A DNA stretch of 52,992 bases from Candidatus Multivorans thiocomprendens (GTDB taxonomy: Bacteria > Acidobacteriota > Thermoanaerobaculia > Multivoradales > Multivoraceae), in assembly GCA_027493375.1 (NCBI GenBank), contig JAPVWO010000269.1:1-52992 (forward strand), given 5' to 3'. The notes below the pieces were generated by a model. The model did no database searches. It was not told the origin of the DNA and was given only the letters and a program-made list of their open reading frames with translations. This document shows, one piece after another, positions 33,369-39,964 of this stretch. Within the stretch, counting starts at the first letter, position 1, and the number at the start of each line of letters is the position of its first letter. The position numbers were made by a program, and so were the translations under genes.

Positions 33369-33627
33369 TCTCAGATTCTGGGGTCGTTACCAACTTCATC
33401 GAGGTCGGCGCGGGCCGTTCATGAAGCGCCAGTGGATCAGCACGAGGTCTTCGAGCCGCCGAAGACGCTTTGGCCGTTGGCGGCGTAGCCTCCCTGCTCT
33501 TGAAGTGCCCGAAGCGGGCCAGCTCTACCGCATCGACGCGGTCTACCTGCCGAGCTTGCCGAGAGCCTTGGCGTAGCTCCAGGCGCGGGCCGGTTGCACC
33601 AGGATCAACTCGCAGTCGTGCGTGGCC

Positions 33628-33651
33628 AAAAGAGAGCGAAACGGTCGCTCT
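33628..33651 (-). terminator. Rho-independent terminator after the second TonB receptor gene
   Basis: A 7-bp stem (33633-33639 with 33645-33651, AGAGCGA/TCGCTCT) with a 5-base loop is followed on the minus strand by CTTTT. It begins 7 bases past the receptor stop at 33658. Confidence 0.88.
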
Positions 33652-33657
33652 GGTTCG

Positions 33658-36612
33658 TTACTTGCCGCCGGCTGACGGGCCCATTCCTCCGCCGAGACCG
33701 TACAGCGTCTTCCGGCCGCCGAGCCGGAAGCTGGCCATGACGCCGACTTCGCGCTGGTCGGTCAAGGAGCCGCGGATCACGCCGCTGCCGAAGCCGTAGC
33801 CTTCGTTCGGCCGCCACTGCTGCACCGCGATCTCGTCGAGGATGTTCTTGGCGAAGGCGTGGATCTGCAGGCCCTCGCGGGGCGTGAACCAGATCGCCCG
33901 CAGGTCAAGCCGGGTGTACTCGGGAATCTTGTACTTAGGCAGGTTGCTCACGTCGGTGTGCTTCTCGGTCGTGTGGCCGAGCGTGGCCAGAAAACGCAGG
34001 TTCGCCAGGTCGTAGATGGCCGTCAACGAGAACTTGTGCCTGGGTTGCAGAGGCATGCGGTTGCCGCCGAAGTTGGTCAGGCTGGCGACCTCTTCCGTGA
34101 ACGTGTTGCCCAACCGGTCCTGAAACTCGACTTCAACAGTCGGCGCGTCCGGGTCGCAGCAGTACGTGGTTTCGAAGTCTCCCATGGCCGAGTCGAGGTA
34201 GTTGTACCAGCCGCGGATCGTGAAGCGGTCGGTAGCCCGGAAGGCCGCGTTGAGCTCCAGCCCCGAGATCCAGCTTCCGTCGATCGTGTTCATCTCGCCC
34301 TCAAAGGCGCTCTGGCCGGGAACCCGCCGTTCGACCGGCAACAGGCGTTCGGAGTTGACCCAGTAGCCCTGGTAGTCGTTGTAGAAGACCGAGGCCTCCA
34401 GTTGCAGGCGGTTGTCGGCCAGCAGGCCCTTCCAGCCGCCTTCGTAGTTGATCAGTTCCTCCGAGTCGAAGGTGACCTCGTTCATGTTGCCGAAGCCGAC
34501 GAAGCCGCCGGGGCGGCCGCCCTTGGAAGCCCGGCCGTACCACATGCTGGCGGGGTTGGCCGAGTACTGGAAGCCCGCGTTCCAGGTGGTCTGGTTCCAC
34601 TCCGCGTCGTTCTTGCCCTCGAAGCCTTCCACCGAGGCGTTGCGGAAGATCCAGAGGTCGACCGCGAAGCCGAAGTTGATGCCGATCCGGACGTCGTTCT
34701 GGACGTGGGTCTTGATGTCCTGGTCGTGGCGGATGCCGCCGAACAGCGTCCACCTGTCGCCGACCTGGTACTCGACGTTCCCGTAGTAGGCCAGGGTCTC
34801 GAACCGCGAGTGGCCGTAAAAGTCGAGCCAGTGGCCGTTCATGTTGCCGTCGGAGAACGCGCCGATGGCGCCCGCGTTCGACCAGTCGAGGAGTTCACCG
34901 GGGCACGCCCAGACGCCGCCCTGGCCGGAGATGGCCGACGTGGTGCCGTGGTCGCTCAACAGGGGCAGCCCGAAGAACGGCAGCGACGCCTGGCAGGTCG
35001 CCAGGGTGTTCGTGTTGAACGCCGGGTTGGCGAAGTTGAAGAAGCGGGCGTCGTAGGGTTCGTCCCCGTCCCGCTGAAAACCGCCCAGAACGAACTGGAA
35101 GTTGCCCGCGAAGCTCGACGCCAGACGCACCTCGTGGGAGGTCTGCTCCGAGTAGCGGAAGTAGTTCGTCATCGTGTCGGCGAACGGGTAACCGTTCGCG
35201 TCGAGGAAGGGATTGTCGGGACCGCCGACGCGCGAGGTGCCGTCGGTGTCGGTCTGCGCGTTCTCCGTCGTTTCCCGATAGCCGCCCTTGTAGGAAAGGG
35301 ACAAACCCCGGCTGGGCCGGATGTTCAGATCGGCCACGGCCATCTGGAGTTCCGAGTCCTCGTTGCCGGGCGTGTTGTAGTCGACGACGTTGCGCAGGTC
35401 GTCGCCCGGACAGATGAGCTGGTTCGGATCACTGAGATCGCAGTCCCTGACCGACGGCGCCTGGTTCGCGGCGCCGAGGAAGGGATTGGGGAACAGGCAG
35501 GTCGGGTTGCCCTCCGGGTCGGTGCCTGTCAGCAGACATTCCGTGGTCACGTCGCGGCCGGTCAGTTCGACCGAGGTGCGGGGCGCGCCGCTGTCCTCGC
35601 GCCCGGCGTAGCGGAGGTTGAAGTCGACCGTCTCGCCGAGATAGCGGAGCTGCGGCGCCCAGTGGGTGTTATCCGGTTCGTCGTAGTCGCCGCCGGGGCC
35701 GATGTTGGGCTGCGCGCCCTCGCCCTGCCAGCTTCCGGCCGTCAACCGCCAGCTCACTCCGCTGTCGCCGATCGGCCCGCCGATGGCGAGGTCGCCGCGT
35801 TGCGACGCCTGGTCGGTGTACTCGGCCAGGGCGTTGACGTCGAACTGGGCGGTCGGCTTGATCGTGTTGAAGCTGATCGCCCCGGCGATCGCGGCGCGGC
35901 CGCCGGTGGTTCCCTGCGGGCCGCGCGCCACGTTCATGCTCTCGACGTCGAACAGGTTGCCGGGCTCGAGCGCATAGAGCTCGTCGGTGTAGATGCCGTC
36001 GACGTAGGTGGCGACCGCCGTGGCCTGGAAGAACTCCTGGTTCCGCTGCGAGCCGATGCCGCGCAGGTAGAGGTGGTTGCCGTGACCCGAATCGGGCGAC
36101 TGATGGCCGATCTGCAGGCCCGGCGTGAGCGCTTCGAGGTCGTTGTTGTTGTTCATCCCGAGCTCGACGACCATGCCCTCGTTGAAGCCGGTGACCGTCA
36201 TCGGCCGGCGTAGGACGTTCTCCTCGCCGATCTCGCCCTGGACGAAGATCTGCTCGACGACGGAGAGACCGAGCGCGAACTCGACGGAGGCCATGCCTCC
36301 CGAGACCTCGACCGCTTCGCTCGAGGAACGGAAGCCCTGGAGCGACGCCGTCGCCGTGTAGTCGCCGTCTTCCAGGCCGTCGATGCGGAAGGCGCCGGCG
36401 GCGTCGGTCTGCGTGCTCTTGCCGATGTCCTCGCCGTCGGCGTCCTGCAGGCTGACGGTGACGCCGGGCAGGGCGCCGCCTTCGCGGTCGTAGACCGTTC
36501 CGGAAACGCTGCCGTCCTGAGCCGCGGCAGGCAGGGCGAGTACCGCCATGGCCAGCAGGGTCAACCCAACCCGTCTCCGGGCCGGAGACTCATTCGGGTG
36601 GCTCTTCGTCAT
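33658..36612 (-). CDS. TonB-dependent receptor with N-terminal carboxypeptidase-regulatory domain
   Basis: A 984-residue outer-membrane receptor. The signal peptide (about 1-32, LALPAAAQDG) is followed by a regulatory beta-sandwich (about 33-115, GTVYDREGGALPGVTVSLQDADG), a plug (about 120-240, LEALTPGLQIGHQS, NHLYLRGIGSQRNQ, VATYVDGIYTDELYAL, VARGPQGTTGGRAAIAG) and a barrel. The plug strings resemble siderophore/B12-type plugs more than the Oar type at 8843. After the beta-signal-like VGVMASFRL the protein continues for about 20 Gly-rich residues, so it lacks the usual terminal Phe. The ATG at 36612 has GAGGAG upstream; the long upstream open frame is in a region with no other coding signs. 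A perfect terminator follows at 33628-33651. Ligand unknown. Confidence 0.92.
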   Translation of the reverse strand: MTKSHPNESPARRRVGLTLLAMAVLALPAAAQDGSVSGTVYDREGGALPGVTVSLQDADGEDIGKSTQTDAAGAFRIDGLEDGDYTATASLQGFRSSSEAVEVSGGMASVEFALGLSVVEQIFVQGEIGEENVLRRPMTVTGFNEGMVVELGMNNNNDLEALTPGLQIGHQSPDSGHGNHLYLRGIGSQRNQEFFQATAVATYVDGIYTDELYALEPGNLFDVESMNVARGPQGTTGGRAAIAGAISFNTIKPTAQFDVNALAEYTDQASQRGDLAIGGPIGDSGVSWRLTAGSWQGEGAQPNIGPGGDYDEPDNTHWAPQLRYLGETVDFNLRYAGREDSGAPRTSVELTGRDVTTECLLTGTDPEGNPTCLFPNPFLGAANQAPSVRDCDLSDPNQLICPGDDLRNVVDYNTPGNEDSELQMAVADLNIRPSRGLSLSYKGGYRETTENAQTDTDGTSRVGGPDNPFLDANGYPFADTMTNYFRYSEQTSHEVRLASSFAGNFQFVLGGFQRDGDEPYDARFFNFANPAFNTNTLATCQASLPFFGLPLLSDHGTTSAISGQGGVWACPGELLDWSNAGAIGAFSDGNMNGHWLDFYGHSRFETLAYYGNVEYQVGDRWTLFGGIRHDQDIKTHVQNDVRIGINFGFAVDLWIFRNASVEGFEGKNDAEWNQTTWNAGFQYSANPASMWYGRASKGGRPGGFVGFGNMNEVTFDSEELINYEGGWKGLLADNRLQLEASVFYNDYQGYWVNSERLLPVERRVPGQSAFEGEMNTIDGSWISGLELNAAFRATDRFTIRGWYNYLDSAMGDFETTYCCDPDAPTVEVEFQDRLGNTFTEEVASLTNFGGNRMPLQPRHKFSLTAIYDLANLRFLATLGHTTEKHTDVSNLPKYKIPEYTRLDLRAIWFTPREGLQIHAFAKNILDEIAVQQWRPNEGYGFGSGVIRGSLTDQREVGVMASFRLGGRKTLYGLGGGMGPSAGGK

Positions 36613-37091
36613 GAGGGTTCTCCTCGGCCGGCGAGGCCTCAGTTCCGAGTTGACGCCGCACGTCGAACCGCCACCATGGCGATCCAAAGGGACTCGCGAT
36701 ACGTCGTGAACTGTCAAGGGTACACGGAACATGTTACAGCGTTCCAATCCGCAGGCTCCCTTGGGGGGCGAACTCGCGGACTGGGCCGGCAGCGCGATCT
36801 TCGAACCGTTAGACCAAGCCACCCGCCCGTCATCGGACGCTGCGGATCGACCACCAGTGCAACCAGCGCGGGTCGCTGGGCAGAGAGGCGCGACCCGGGT
36901 CGTCGCGGCAGCCAGTGCGTTGAATCTGTGTCGATGCCCGAACGGCCGCATGGCGGGTGGCGATGTCCCGGTTCTAGGCTGATCACGGATCTGGAAGACA
37001 CCCCTGATCCTGCCCCGGTCTGTCCACGAAGACGGGCAACCCAAGTTCTGTAAGATCGCCCGCTTCTTCCACAGCTCTTGAGGAGATGTTG
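36613..37091. other. Long divergent intergenic region (479 bp)
   Basis: It separates the TonB receptor (36612, minus) from the small secreted-protein cluster (37092, plus). It holds the candidate motif at 36720-36741, which includes the perfect 8-bp palindrome AACATGTT (36728-36735), and a GAGGAG ribosome site at 37080-37085. TTGACA occurs on the minus strand just downstream of the motif, but without a good -10. No gene is supported, although several frames are open because of high GC. Confidence 0.5.
36720..36741 (-). promoter_or_regulatory. Candidate shared upstream motif (TonB receptor gene)
   Basis: GTACACGGAACATGTTACAG on the plus strand lies 108-129 bases upstream of the receptor start and contains the palindrome AACATGTT. 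Its last 15 bases align with 33354-33368 upstream of the cytochrome-like gene at 12 positions. GGAAC and GTTCC flank it as a 5-bp inverted repeat (36726-36730 with 36741-36745). Confidence 0.35.
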
Positions 37092-37848
37092 ATGCGATCC
37101 AGTTCACCCCCAATGCCCGCGCTGTTCCTGTTAGTCGCCATCTTCGCGGTCACGCCACTCGTGGGCCAAGCGGCATTTGAGGAGACACTGACCGGTGAAC
37201 TGGAGGTTCCGTTCAATCCGGCGATGCTCGACCCCGAGACGAGCATCGCCTACCTGGTGCACATCGCCGAGTTGCTGGACTGGCAGCAACCCCCAGAGAC
37301 GCTGTGGGAGATCGACATCCCAATCTCGATTGACCGGGCGGTGTACGAGCGGATGCGGGTCGCCCGCAACCCCGATGAGATCGAGTCGATCGAATCCGAA
37401 TCCCGCGTCCCAACCGGCAACCCTAGTGCACAGAATGTCGTGTACGTTGGTTCTTTCCGTTGCTCCGCTCGGGCGCACAACCCTCACCGGAGCCGCCAAA
37501 GCGGCACCGTGAAGGCAAAAGGTGATGGCTACTGCACGTACACGCCGCTCATCAACTGGCTGACGCCCCCGATCGTCTGGAGCTTCAAGATGGCCATGTC
37601 GAAGCCCGCAGCCCAGCAGATCTGGTACGCCACTCACCGGAAGTTCGAGCAGAATCCCGTGTGGGAGCAGGACTACGGGAACCTCGGCGGCGACGGCACG
37701 CAGGTAGACTCCGGGCAATGCACGAACGGTACCTACCAGCATACGGTCGACATTGATGTCTTCGTGCCCTTTCCGTGGAATCGTCGAGATCACTCAACCG
37801 CTAGTGGCCTATCGGGTTGCGGTCGGGGTGGTGACCACATGTCCGTAG
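37092..37848 (+). CDS. Unrecognised secreted protein, interrupted by a single-base frameshift
   Basis: About 250 residues with a clear signal peptide (ALFLLVAIFAVTPLVGQAAF). The mature part is unrecognised: ELEVPFNPAMLDPETSIAYLVHIAELL, a basic Cys-containing stretch (SFRCSARAHNPHRSRQSG), TVKAKGDGYCTYTP, then TNGTYQHTVDIDVFVPF. As written, the frame runs on into the next gene through implausible sequence. One base earlier or later at about 37768-37773, the frame gives RGIVEITQPLVAYRVAVGVV and a stop TAG at 37846-37848, a far better C-terminus. One extra C in CCCTTTCC is therefore suspected. The ATG at 37092 is preferred over 37086 because GAGGAG then sits 6 bases away. GC content is visibly lower than average here. 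Confidence 0.65.
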
Positions 37849-38267
37849 ACGAACAGAAGCTCCGCGAGATGCTCGTCGGGCTGACGAACACGAGCTGCGA
37901 GAACCTCTCGGTTTTGCTCCTGATCGCCCAGGAGGTCGATCTCGTGCTGCCCCACAGCGAGCACACGATGATTCGGATTCTGGAGGCCCAACGGACTCTC
38001 GCGCGTCAGACCTTCGGTCCCGACATCGAGTTCGACGCCAGCGTGGCGAAGCGTGTCGATCTGACCGACATCGCGGTCGATCGCGAGAAGCTCCGGCGGC
38101 TCTTGGATCGGATCACCGATCTTGAGAGCCGCAACCTCGCGCTCCTCCGGGCGGTAGCGGAGCGGACCGGGATGCGGAATCCGCTGGACACTGAGCTGGA
38201 CCGGCAGCTAGACGATCAGCGCCGCGCCCAACTGGAAGCGGTCTTCGGCGCCGAGTCGCCCGAATGA
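37839..38267 (+). CDS. Unrecognised protein with two copies of a 57-residue module (A)
   Basis: A 142-residue soluble, probably all-helical protein. Residues 4-60 and 81-137 are two copies of one 57-residue module that align without gaps to each other and to the two copies in the next gene. Shared positions include Asp1, Leu5-Arg6, Leu9, Asn19-Leu20 and Pro35, plus basic residues near 48-50 (for example DREKLRRLLDRITDLESRNL). A linker (KRVDLTDIAV) precedes the second copy. The internal ATG at 37839 is taken as the start because it begins just before module 1 and overlaps the corrected stop of the secreted protein by 10 bases. The stop overlaps the next start (ATGA). No family or function is recognised. 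Confidence 0.68.
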   Translation: MSVDEQKLREMLVGLTNTSCENLSVLLLIAQEVDLVLPHSEHTMIRILEAQRTLARQTFGPDIEFDASVAKRVDLTDIAVDREKLRRLLDRITDLESRNLALLRAVAERTGMRNPLDTELDRQLDDQRRAQLEAVFGAESPE

Positions 38268-38674
38268 CCAAGCGGCCGCTGACAGACGGCGATGCGCTGC
38301 GGAACTTGCTGACAGGGATCGTCAACGGCCAGTGCGAGACTTTCTCGTTCCTCGTGCGAGCCGCCACGAGTCTCGGCCTGACGGTACCGTACCGGAAGCA
38401 GCTGGGATACGAGATGCGGGGCCGGCGCCATCGTCTGATCGAGGAATCGGTCGGGCCACCCACCCGGATCGGCCACGTCGATCTTGAGTCGGCGGGCGTC
38501 GACCGCGAGGCTCTGCGCGACCTGCTGGCGGGCTTCGTCGATGTTGAGGCCCACAATCTCGATCTGCTGGTGGCGGTTGGTGCCGAGGCGGGGGTCAAGA
38601 CGCCCCACGATCCCGAGGACTTGCAAGTCCTGGTGGCAAACCGCCGCAGGCTGCTCGACAGGGCCCTTCGCTAG
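38264..38674 (+). CDS. Unrecognised protein with two copies of a 57-residue module (B)
   Basis: A 136-residue paralogue of the preceding protein. Modules occupy 8-64 (DGDALRNLLTGIVNGQ onward) and 80-136 (DREALRDLLAGFVDVE onward), with a 15-residue linker containing GHVDLESAGV that resembles the linker of protein A. All four modules in the pair keep Pro at position 35 and a Leu-Arg pair at 5-6. No signal peptide, membrane segment or catalytic motif is visible; the modules are predicted amphipathic helices. Translation is probably coupled to protein A through ATGA. The pair and the secreted protein before it form a compact three-gene cluster. I do not assign a function. Confidence 0.78.
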   Translation: MTKRPLTDGDALRNLLTGIVNGQCETFSFLVRAATSLGLTVPYRKQLGYEMRGRRHRLIEESVGPPTRIGHVDLESAGVDREALRDLLAGFVDVEAHNLDLLVAVGAEAGVKTPHDPEDLQVLVANRRRLLDRALR

Positions 38675-38707
38675 TGGACGTGCGTCCGGCGGTTTCCGAA
38701 CCCAGCG

Positions 38708-39964
38708 TTGGCTAGTCCGCCGCGAGTGAATCGCGCTCTATCCGGTTGGATCGCCGGCCTCCTGCTGGCGTGGCTTCTCGCCGCACCCCTGTCGGCCCAG
38801 CCGCCCGGCGCGGCGACGGACGCTCCGGCGGAGCTGATCGCCCGAATCGAGGCGCCGCGCGAGGCCGGGTCGAGCGACGACTCCGGCAAGAGCCTCGCGG
38901 AGCTGATGGAGACGCACGGCATCTCCGCGCTCAGCGTCGCCGTCGTCGAGGACTACCGGCTGCACTGGGCCAGGGCCTGGGGCGTGACGGACGAATCGAC
39001 CGGCGCGCCGGCCGACACGGACACCCTGTTCCAGGCCGCTTCGATCAGCAAGCCGGTCTCGGCGATGGCGGTGCTCCGGGCGGTCCAGGACGGGCTCTTC
39101 GACCTGGACGACGACATCAACTCGATCCTTCGGTCCTGGAAGCTCCGGGACGACGCCGAGTTGCTCGCCGAGACCCCGGTGACGCCGCGAATGCTGCTGA
39201 GCATGACGGCCGGCACGACGGTTTCGGGATTCCCCGGCTACAAGCCGGACGCAGAGCTGCCGACACTTCCCGAGGTCCTGGGGCGGAAGGACGAGGAAAC
39301 ACCGGCCAACACGGACCCGGTGGTCGTCGGCTGGCGGCCCGGCAGCCGCTACGAGTACTCGGGCGGCGGCTCGACCATCCTGCAGCTCGCCTTGAGCGAC
39401 GTTCAGGGCGAGCCATTCGAGGAGATCCTCCAGGAGACCGTCCTCGACCCGCTCGGCATGAGCCGAAGCTGCTTCTGCCAGCCGCTGCCCGAGGCACTCC
39501 ACGGCAACGCCGCGCGGGCGGGCGGGTCGACGACCGGGAGCGCCGCGAAGGACCGCGAGCCCCGCGCGCCCTGGCACGTCTACCCGGAGCTCTACGCCGC
39601 GGGCCTGTGGACGACGCCGACGGACCTCGCGAAGTTCCTGATCGAGGTCCAGTTCTCCCTGGAGGGTCGCTCGAACCGCATCCTCACGACCGGGTTCACC
39701 CGCAAGATGGTGACGCCCGGAGGCGTGGGCAACTACGCTCTCGGCTTCACCACCGGCGCCGACACTCCGCACCGCCCCGCGCCACCCGGAGAAGCGGACC
39801 GTTTCTTCGGACATACCGGCGGCAACTGGGGCTTCCGCGGGAACTTCGTCGGATCGCTCGAAGGAGGCAACGGCTATGTCATCCTGGCCAACAGCAGCGA
39901 AGCCAACCCGGTCATCTTCGTCGAGCTGCCGGCGCGCATCCGGGCCGCCTACGGGTGGGAGTAG
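38708..39964 (+). CDS. Serine hydrolase, beta-lactamase/class C PBP fold (exported)
   Basis: A 418-residue exported serine hydrolase of the beta-lactamase-like family. A signal peptide (about 10-32, WIAGLLLAWLLAAPLSAQ) precedes SISK at 112-115 (nucleophile Ser112 and Lys115), the Tyr motif YEYSGGG (about 219), and HTGGNWG near 365 in place of the KTG box. Such proteins act as esterases, D-amino-acid peptidases or penicillin-binding proteins; true beta-lactamase activity should not be assumed. The TTG at 38708 is the first possible start and a GTG at 38726 is an alternative. A second, unlike member of the same family begins inside its 3' end. Confidence 0.87.
   Translation: MASPPRVNRALSGWIAGLLLAWLLAAPLSAQPPGAATDAPAELIARIEAPREAGSSDDSGKSLAELMETHGISALSVAVVEDYRLHWARAWGVTDESTGAPADTDTLFQAASISKPVSAMAVLRAVQDGLFDLDDDINSILRSWKLRDDAELLAETPVTPRMLLSMTAGTTVSGFPGYKPDAELPTLPEVLGRKDEETPANTDPVVVGWRPGSRYEYSGGGSTILQLALSDVQGEPFEEILQETVLDPLGMSRSCFCQPLPEALHGNAARAGGSTTGSAAKDREPRAPWHVYPELYAAGLWTTPTDLAKFLIEVQFSLEGRSNRILTTGFTRKMVTPGGVGNYALGFTTGADTPHRPAPPGEADRFFGHTGGNWGFRGNFVGSLEGGNGYVILANSSEANPVIFVELPARIRAAYGWE

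Follow-up and report, generated by a model that had tools for sequence, protein, structure and literature searches.

Two short overlapping genes of Candidatus Multivorans thiocomprendens together carry four copies of a protein module that a sequence-only reading of this DNA had not recognised, and the locus raises the question of how the pair arose and what it might do behind a gene for a secreted protein. The stretch analysed, referred to here as the window, comprises 52,992 nucleotides of contig JAPVWO010000269.1. Our leading interpretation, to which we give a probability of about one in three on the basis of gene position and analogy, is that the locus may encode an accessory secreted antagonist together with two duplicated cytosolic immunity-type proteins.

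Two paralogous genes built from a 57-residue module

The features of the gene pair are as follows.

37839 to 38267, forward strand: gene 1, 142 amino acids, two modules, pI 4.9, hydropathy profile free of transmembrane segments, best codon-usage score among the six frames
38264 to 38674, forward strand: gene 2, 136 amino acids, two modules, start inside the stop codon of gene 1 (ATGA)
37848 to 38018, forward strand: module 1, 57 amino acids, from the module alignment
38079 to 38249, forward strand: module 2, 57 amino acids, from the module alignment
38285 to 38455, forward strand: module 3, 57 amino acids, from the module alignment
38501 to 38671, forward strand: module 4, 57 amino acids, from the module alignment

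Residues 4-60 and 81-137 of protein 1 and residues 8-64 and 80-136 of protein 2 can be aligned gap-free along all 57 columns. The four copies reported previously in two genes sharing an ATGA junction were thus recovered, and they proved robust: all six pairwise scores lay 6.1-7.7 SD above those of 5,000 shuffles, none of which scored as high, and self-comparison without a given register returned the repeat at an offset of 77 in gene 1 and 72 in gene 2 (0 of 1,000 shuffles). Asp1, Leu5, Arg6, Leu9 and Pro35, already listed as shared, are invariant in all four modules, as is Leu23, which the list had missed; the linkers of the two proteins are also alike as described (VDLTDIAVDRE / VDLESAGVDRE). 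The two genes are paralogous (BLASTP, 34% identity, E 3e-19). Since modules 2 and 4 are the closest pair, with 23 of 57 residues identical compared to 13-15 for the remaining pairs, the internal duplication was most likely earlier than the gene duplication. The sequences fit the proposed history of a module that was most likely duplicated first within one gene and then along with that entire gene.

In a codon-usage model trained on neighbouring genes, both genes scored best in their own frame (0.179 versus 0.042 for the next-best frame in gene 1, and 0.120 versus -0.021 in gene 2), albeit with modest margins. The lower GC content noted before was confirmed, with 0.62-0.66 in the stretch of the module genes compared to 0.69-0.70 in the flanks. 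The gene 1 product is acidic, with a net charge of -8, and the gene 2 product is neutral. Hydropathy revealed no transmembrane-like segment in either protein and no hydrophobic signal-like segment in the gene 2 product.

Distribution of the module family

Searches of Pfam, NCBIfam, PHROGs, PADLOC and PDB sequences gave no usable match to the module, which in this respect is as unrecognised as first described. The sub-threshold hits, namely Tautomerase in Pfam (E 0.1), phrog_8067 (E 0.03), the PADLOC type IIG model (E 6e-4; 15.9 bits, spread along an extended helical region) and the PDB sequence matches, were judged to be chance matches of composition. Across 396 genomes of the phylum, a profile of the two genes recovered just these two genes, besides weak partial matches in five genomes (E 1e-4 to 0.006), and in the rest of the own genome a profile of the four modules gave no further match below E 0.03. 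Gene 2 gave a single non-significant match among phages (E 0.4), and a pattern scan of contigs from 84,980 species and of viral contigs, which reaches close relatives only, yielded no relative. As these distribution scans are bounded, with close relatives within reach and a limited number of candidates scored in the whole-genome first look, the absence of relatives is bounded too, and within these searches the module pair is an orphan family of a single genome.

The upstream gene and its probable original end

The gene preceding the pair was delimited by homology and hydropathy.

37086 to 37848, forward strand: secreted-protein gene with a hydrophobic signal-like N terminus and conserved cysteines, by homology to genome G007 and hydropathy

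The module genes had been placed behind a secreted protein of unrecognised type. A secreted-protein gene does lie upstream, but as assembled its reading frame runs into gene 1 without a stop, giving an unbroken ORF of 393 amino acids at 37086-38267 on the forward strand. Taken at face value, this open frame would mean that modules 1 and 2 form the C-terminal end of one long exported protein and that gene 2 makes a separate cytosolic protein. We regard this as improbable, given the only homologue that was found, P0005 of the congener G007, which shares 30% identity with the secreted protein across 202 alignment columns (E 3e-20). The C-terminal end of P0005 is PLVAYRGKSAWVESC, and its counterpart in the window, PLVAYRVAVGVVTTCP followed by a stop, is encoded in the other frame (+1) and ends with the TAG at 37846-37848. 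The tail read in this frame (PLVAYR...C) is colinear with that of P0005, is equally far from its terminal cysteine and shares 8 of 15 residues with it, a match reached by 1 in 200,000 shuffles. In addition, the paralogous gene 2 has no signal-like segment of its own, which also speaks against export of modules 1 and 2.

The homologue thus indicates a frameshift of one base in the secreted-protein gene, located at about 37783 to 37803, and by the tail match in the other frame the gene most likely extended to 37848 originally and shared 10 bases with gene 1. Judged by this homology, gene 1 was probably a separate gene in the ancestral state, as the sequence-only reading had it, and the ancestral arrangement was most likely an overlapping operon of three genes, i.e. 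the secreted-protein gene, gene 1 and gene 2. The extra base is either a real mutation or an error in this assembly of 339 contigs. The module proteins are shown to be paralogues devoid of signal or membrane segments and encoded last in this ancestral operon.

Four cysteines of the secreted protein are conserved, which fits an exported disulfide protein. A toxin or trafficking domain was sought in the ORF with no match in Pfam or NCBIfam and no usable match in PHROGs or PADLOC; a novel toxin domain is possible. The 393-residue ORF also had no match in plasmids by tblastn.

The homologue in G007 and a leader shared across the genus

Co-occurrence of the module pair with the secreted protein, which had been suggested as a check, was not borne out by the sole homologue: next to P0005 we recognised no module gene and no convincing small partner gene, and no module gene scored above threshold elsewhere in the G007 genome. 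An obligate three-part system is therefore unsupported. The P0005 locus lies in a separate accessory insert, whose flanking genes, which we take to encode an aminotransferase and a DegT-type protein from reading their sequences, lie close to each other in some congeners, G013 and G005 among them.

The leader DNA of P0005 and its signal peptide (MREALRGTLLSALFFALLIGGAP) recur in 18 of 21 genomes of the genus at E 0.001 or better, with graded similarity, the weaker matches being short. Where ORFs could be read behind this leader, their mature parts differ from one another and several are glycine-rich. Five of these ORFs are followed, at a gap of -1 to +13 bases, by an ORF of 62-82 amino acids with a hydrophobic segment, an arrangement which looks like that of bacteriocin and immunity genes. 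The shared leader, consisting of upstream DNA and the signal peptide MREALRG[AT]LLSVLFF, was seen at L066:8244-8490 (G007) and in L094, L097, L098, L100, L104, L126 and L127. A repeat search did not find it in the window, where the secreted-protein gene has a differing leader.

Two further repeats were observed in the G007 locus. A repeat of about 95 bases (L066:9940-10034) occurs many times in the genus, and two copies in inverted orientation are often separated by 1.4-1.9 kb. An element of 102 bases (L066:9158-9259) contains a T-loop like that of a tRNA and has copies of 99% identity in G015 and at other sites of G007. ARAGORN predicted no tRNA in L004, which spans the 102-base element.

Predicted structure of the module proteins

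AlphaFold, given an alignment of two sequences only, modelled each module protein, with low to moderate confidence, as a pair of hairpins comprising four helices (mean pLDDT 52 for gene 1 and 68.6 for gene 2). The module described as helical is thus helical by prediction, and the 57-residue unit is predicted to be a helical hairpin. Fold searches with the models gave no significant match. The best ones, an S23-like protein (2rld, Z 5.8) and bAvd (8ub7, Z 5.5), are at a level common for helical models and within 1 Z of unrelated rows for a model of pLDDT 68.6, and Ferritin-like/Dps bundles reached E 0.098 at best in Foldseek, with a TM-score of 0.24 and an rmsd of 17.9.

Such generic four-helix bundles would also agree with the two proteins forming a soluble homo- or heterodimeric bundle with a cytosolic role, e.g. 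as a regulator or adaptor, the secreted-protein gene being a mere neighbour in the acquired segment. This explanation, though tentative, is nearly as likely as an immunity role. The occurrence of the secreted homologue without module genes agrees with it, and an acidic and a neutral protein could pair; the ancestral 10-base overlap, on the other hand, suggests that the module genes were expressed together with the secreted-protein gene.

A species-specific segment at a variable site

Three features describe the genomic site.

36566 to 38690, no strand assigned: species-specific DNA of roughly 2.1 kb that holds the three genes, with no counterpart found at this junction in the congeners compared
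33652 to 36581, reverse strand: TonB-dependent receptor gene, in reverse orientation to those congeners examined in which it is retained here, by congener alignment
33374 to 33651, no strand assigned: left junction sequence, no match found

The window is colinear with the congeners on either side of the site and diverges from them between 33373 and 38708. In G015 and G001 the site is nearly empty, and G004, G018, G016 and G017 carry other cargo in the gap. Apart from three short DNA matches, which lie in unrelated frames, 36566-38690 matched nothing in the congeners. As far as the comparison with 20 congeners goes, it is a small, recently gained accessory segment of this species alone, located at a junction that varies in the genus.

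Across the genus, the junction at 33374-38708 is empty, holds the receptor only, or holds the receptor plus differing cargo. The cargo of G004 includes a 206-residue ORF, presumably a DJ-1/PfpI-type protein, and that of G018 a 322-residue ORF which we assume to be a ClpP-like serine protease; in G016 and G017 there are ORFs of about 1,000 amino acids. The receptor gene has the opposite orientation to the window in G003, G004, G005, G007, G008, G014, G016 and G018, and its inversion in the window relative to these at least eight congeners is either real or a misassembly. The idea that 33374-33651 is a degraded IS110-type transposase was dropped, as Pfam and tblastn against plasmids returned nothing. 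The window contains no tRNA, T-loop patterns in it are no commoner than chance, and the ends of the insert lack clear terminal repeats.

The frameshift, the inverted receptor gene and the species-specific distribution might together indicate horizontally acquired cargo in decay and devoid of a present function. We consider this unlikely, as both module genes are fully open with coding-type codon usage and six residues are still kept in all four modules.

Proposed function

If the locus encodes an antagonist and its immunity proteins, the secreted protein would be exported as a bacteriocin- or toxin-like antagonist, and the helical pair, occupying the immunity slot of the operon, would guard the producer by binding the secreted protein or its target inside the cell. 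The duplications may have broadened or strengthened this protection. With the secreted-protein gene frameshifted, the pair may now serve as orphan immunity genes.

Several observations point in this direction. The secreted-protein gene is followed by two small, soluble, duplicated proteins with overlapping junctions, in an accessory segment in place of which the congeners hold nothing or other cargo, and P0005 itself lies in an accessory insert behind a leader common to unrelated small secreted proteins, several of whose genes adjoin a small hydrophobic ORF in the manner of bacteriocin and immunity genes. There is also precedent for a single polypeptide with tandem all-helical immunity domains, namely Imm73 (PMC3482391). 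Conversely, P0005 without adjoining module genes or a convincing small partner weakens an immunity role, as do the differing leader and the lack of a recognised toxin domain in the window; moreover, the immunity-like ORFs of the congeners look like membrane proteins and the module proteins do not. It is rather doubtful that the pair represents a new all-helical, twice-duplicated immunity family acting with a secreted four-cysteine antagonist, and belonging to a set of small exported proteins, spread through the genus, that swap mature parts behind a shared leader. Of the uncharacterised partner system first proposed, what stands is a predicted helical module in no searched family, duplicated twice in overlapping genes, whose products are putative partners of one another; an obligate link to the secreted protein is unsupported, given G007.

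Comparison with known systems

If the immunity role is correct, two rounds of duplication would have produced a new helical immunity family, and the locus would point to unstudied exported competition proteins in the genus that are easily found by their shared leader. If it is not, the pair is still a clean example of lineage-restricted genes made by duplication.

The four-helix arrangement predicted for the module proteins resembles S23-like and bAvd bundles (2rld, 8ub7), but no sequence match to these was found and the Z scores are in the range expected of any helical bundle. Bacteriocin and immunity pairs likewise consist of a secreted-protein gene and a tightly coupled small gene, whereas here there are two duplicated genes without membrane segments and the toxicity of the secreted product is only putative. 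The gene order of polymorphic toxin and immunity systems fits the window but not the G007 homologue. Among these systems, Imm73 and other all-alpha immunity families (PMC3482391) are all-helical, lie beside secreted toxins and sometimes have two to three tandem copies per polypeptide; the module pair differs in having no match in the Pfam and NCBIfam scans (the Pfam library may not include an Imm73 model), no recognised toxin domain at its locus and a distribution of one genome only. Taken together, the module pair is a genuine orphan, yet ordinary in kind.
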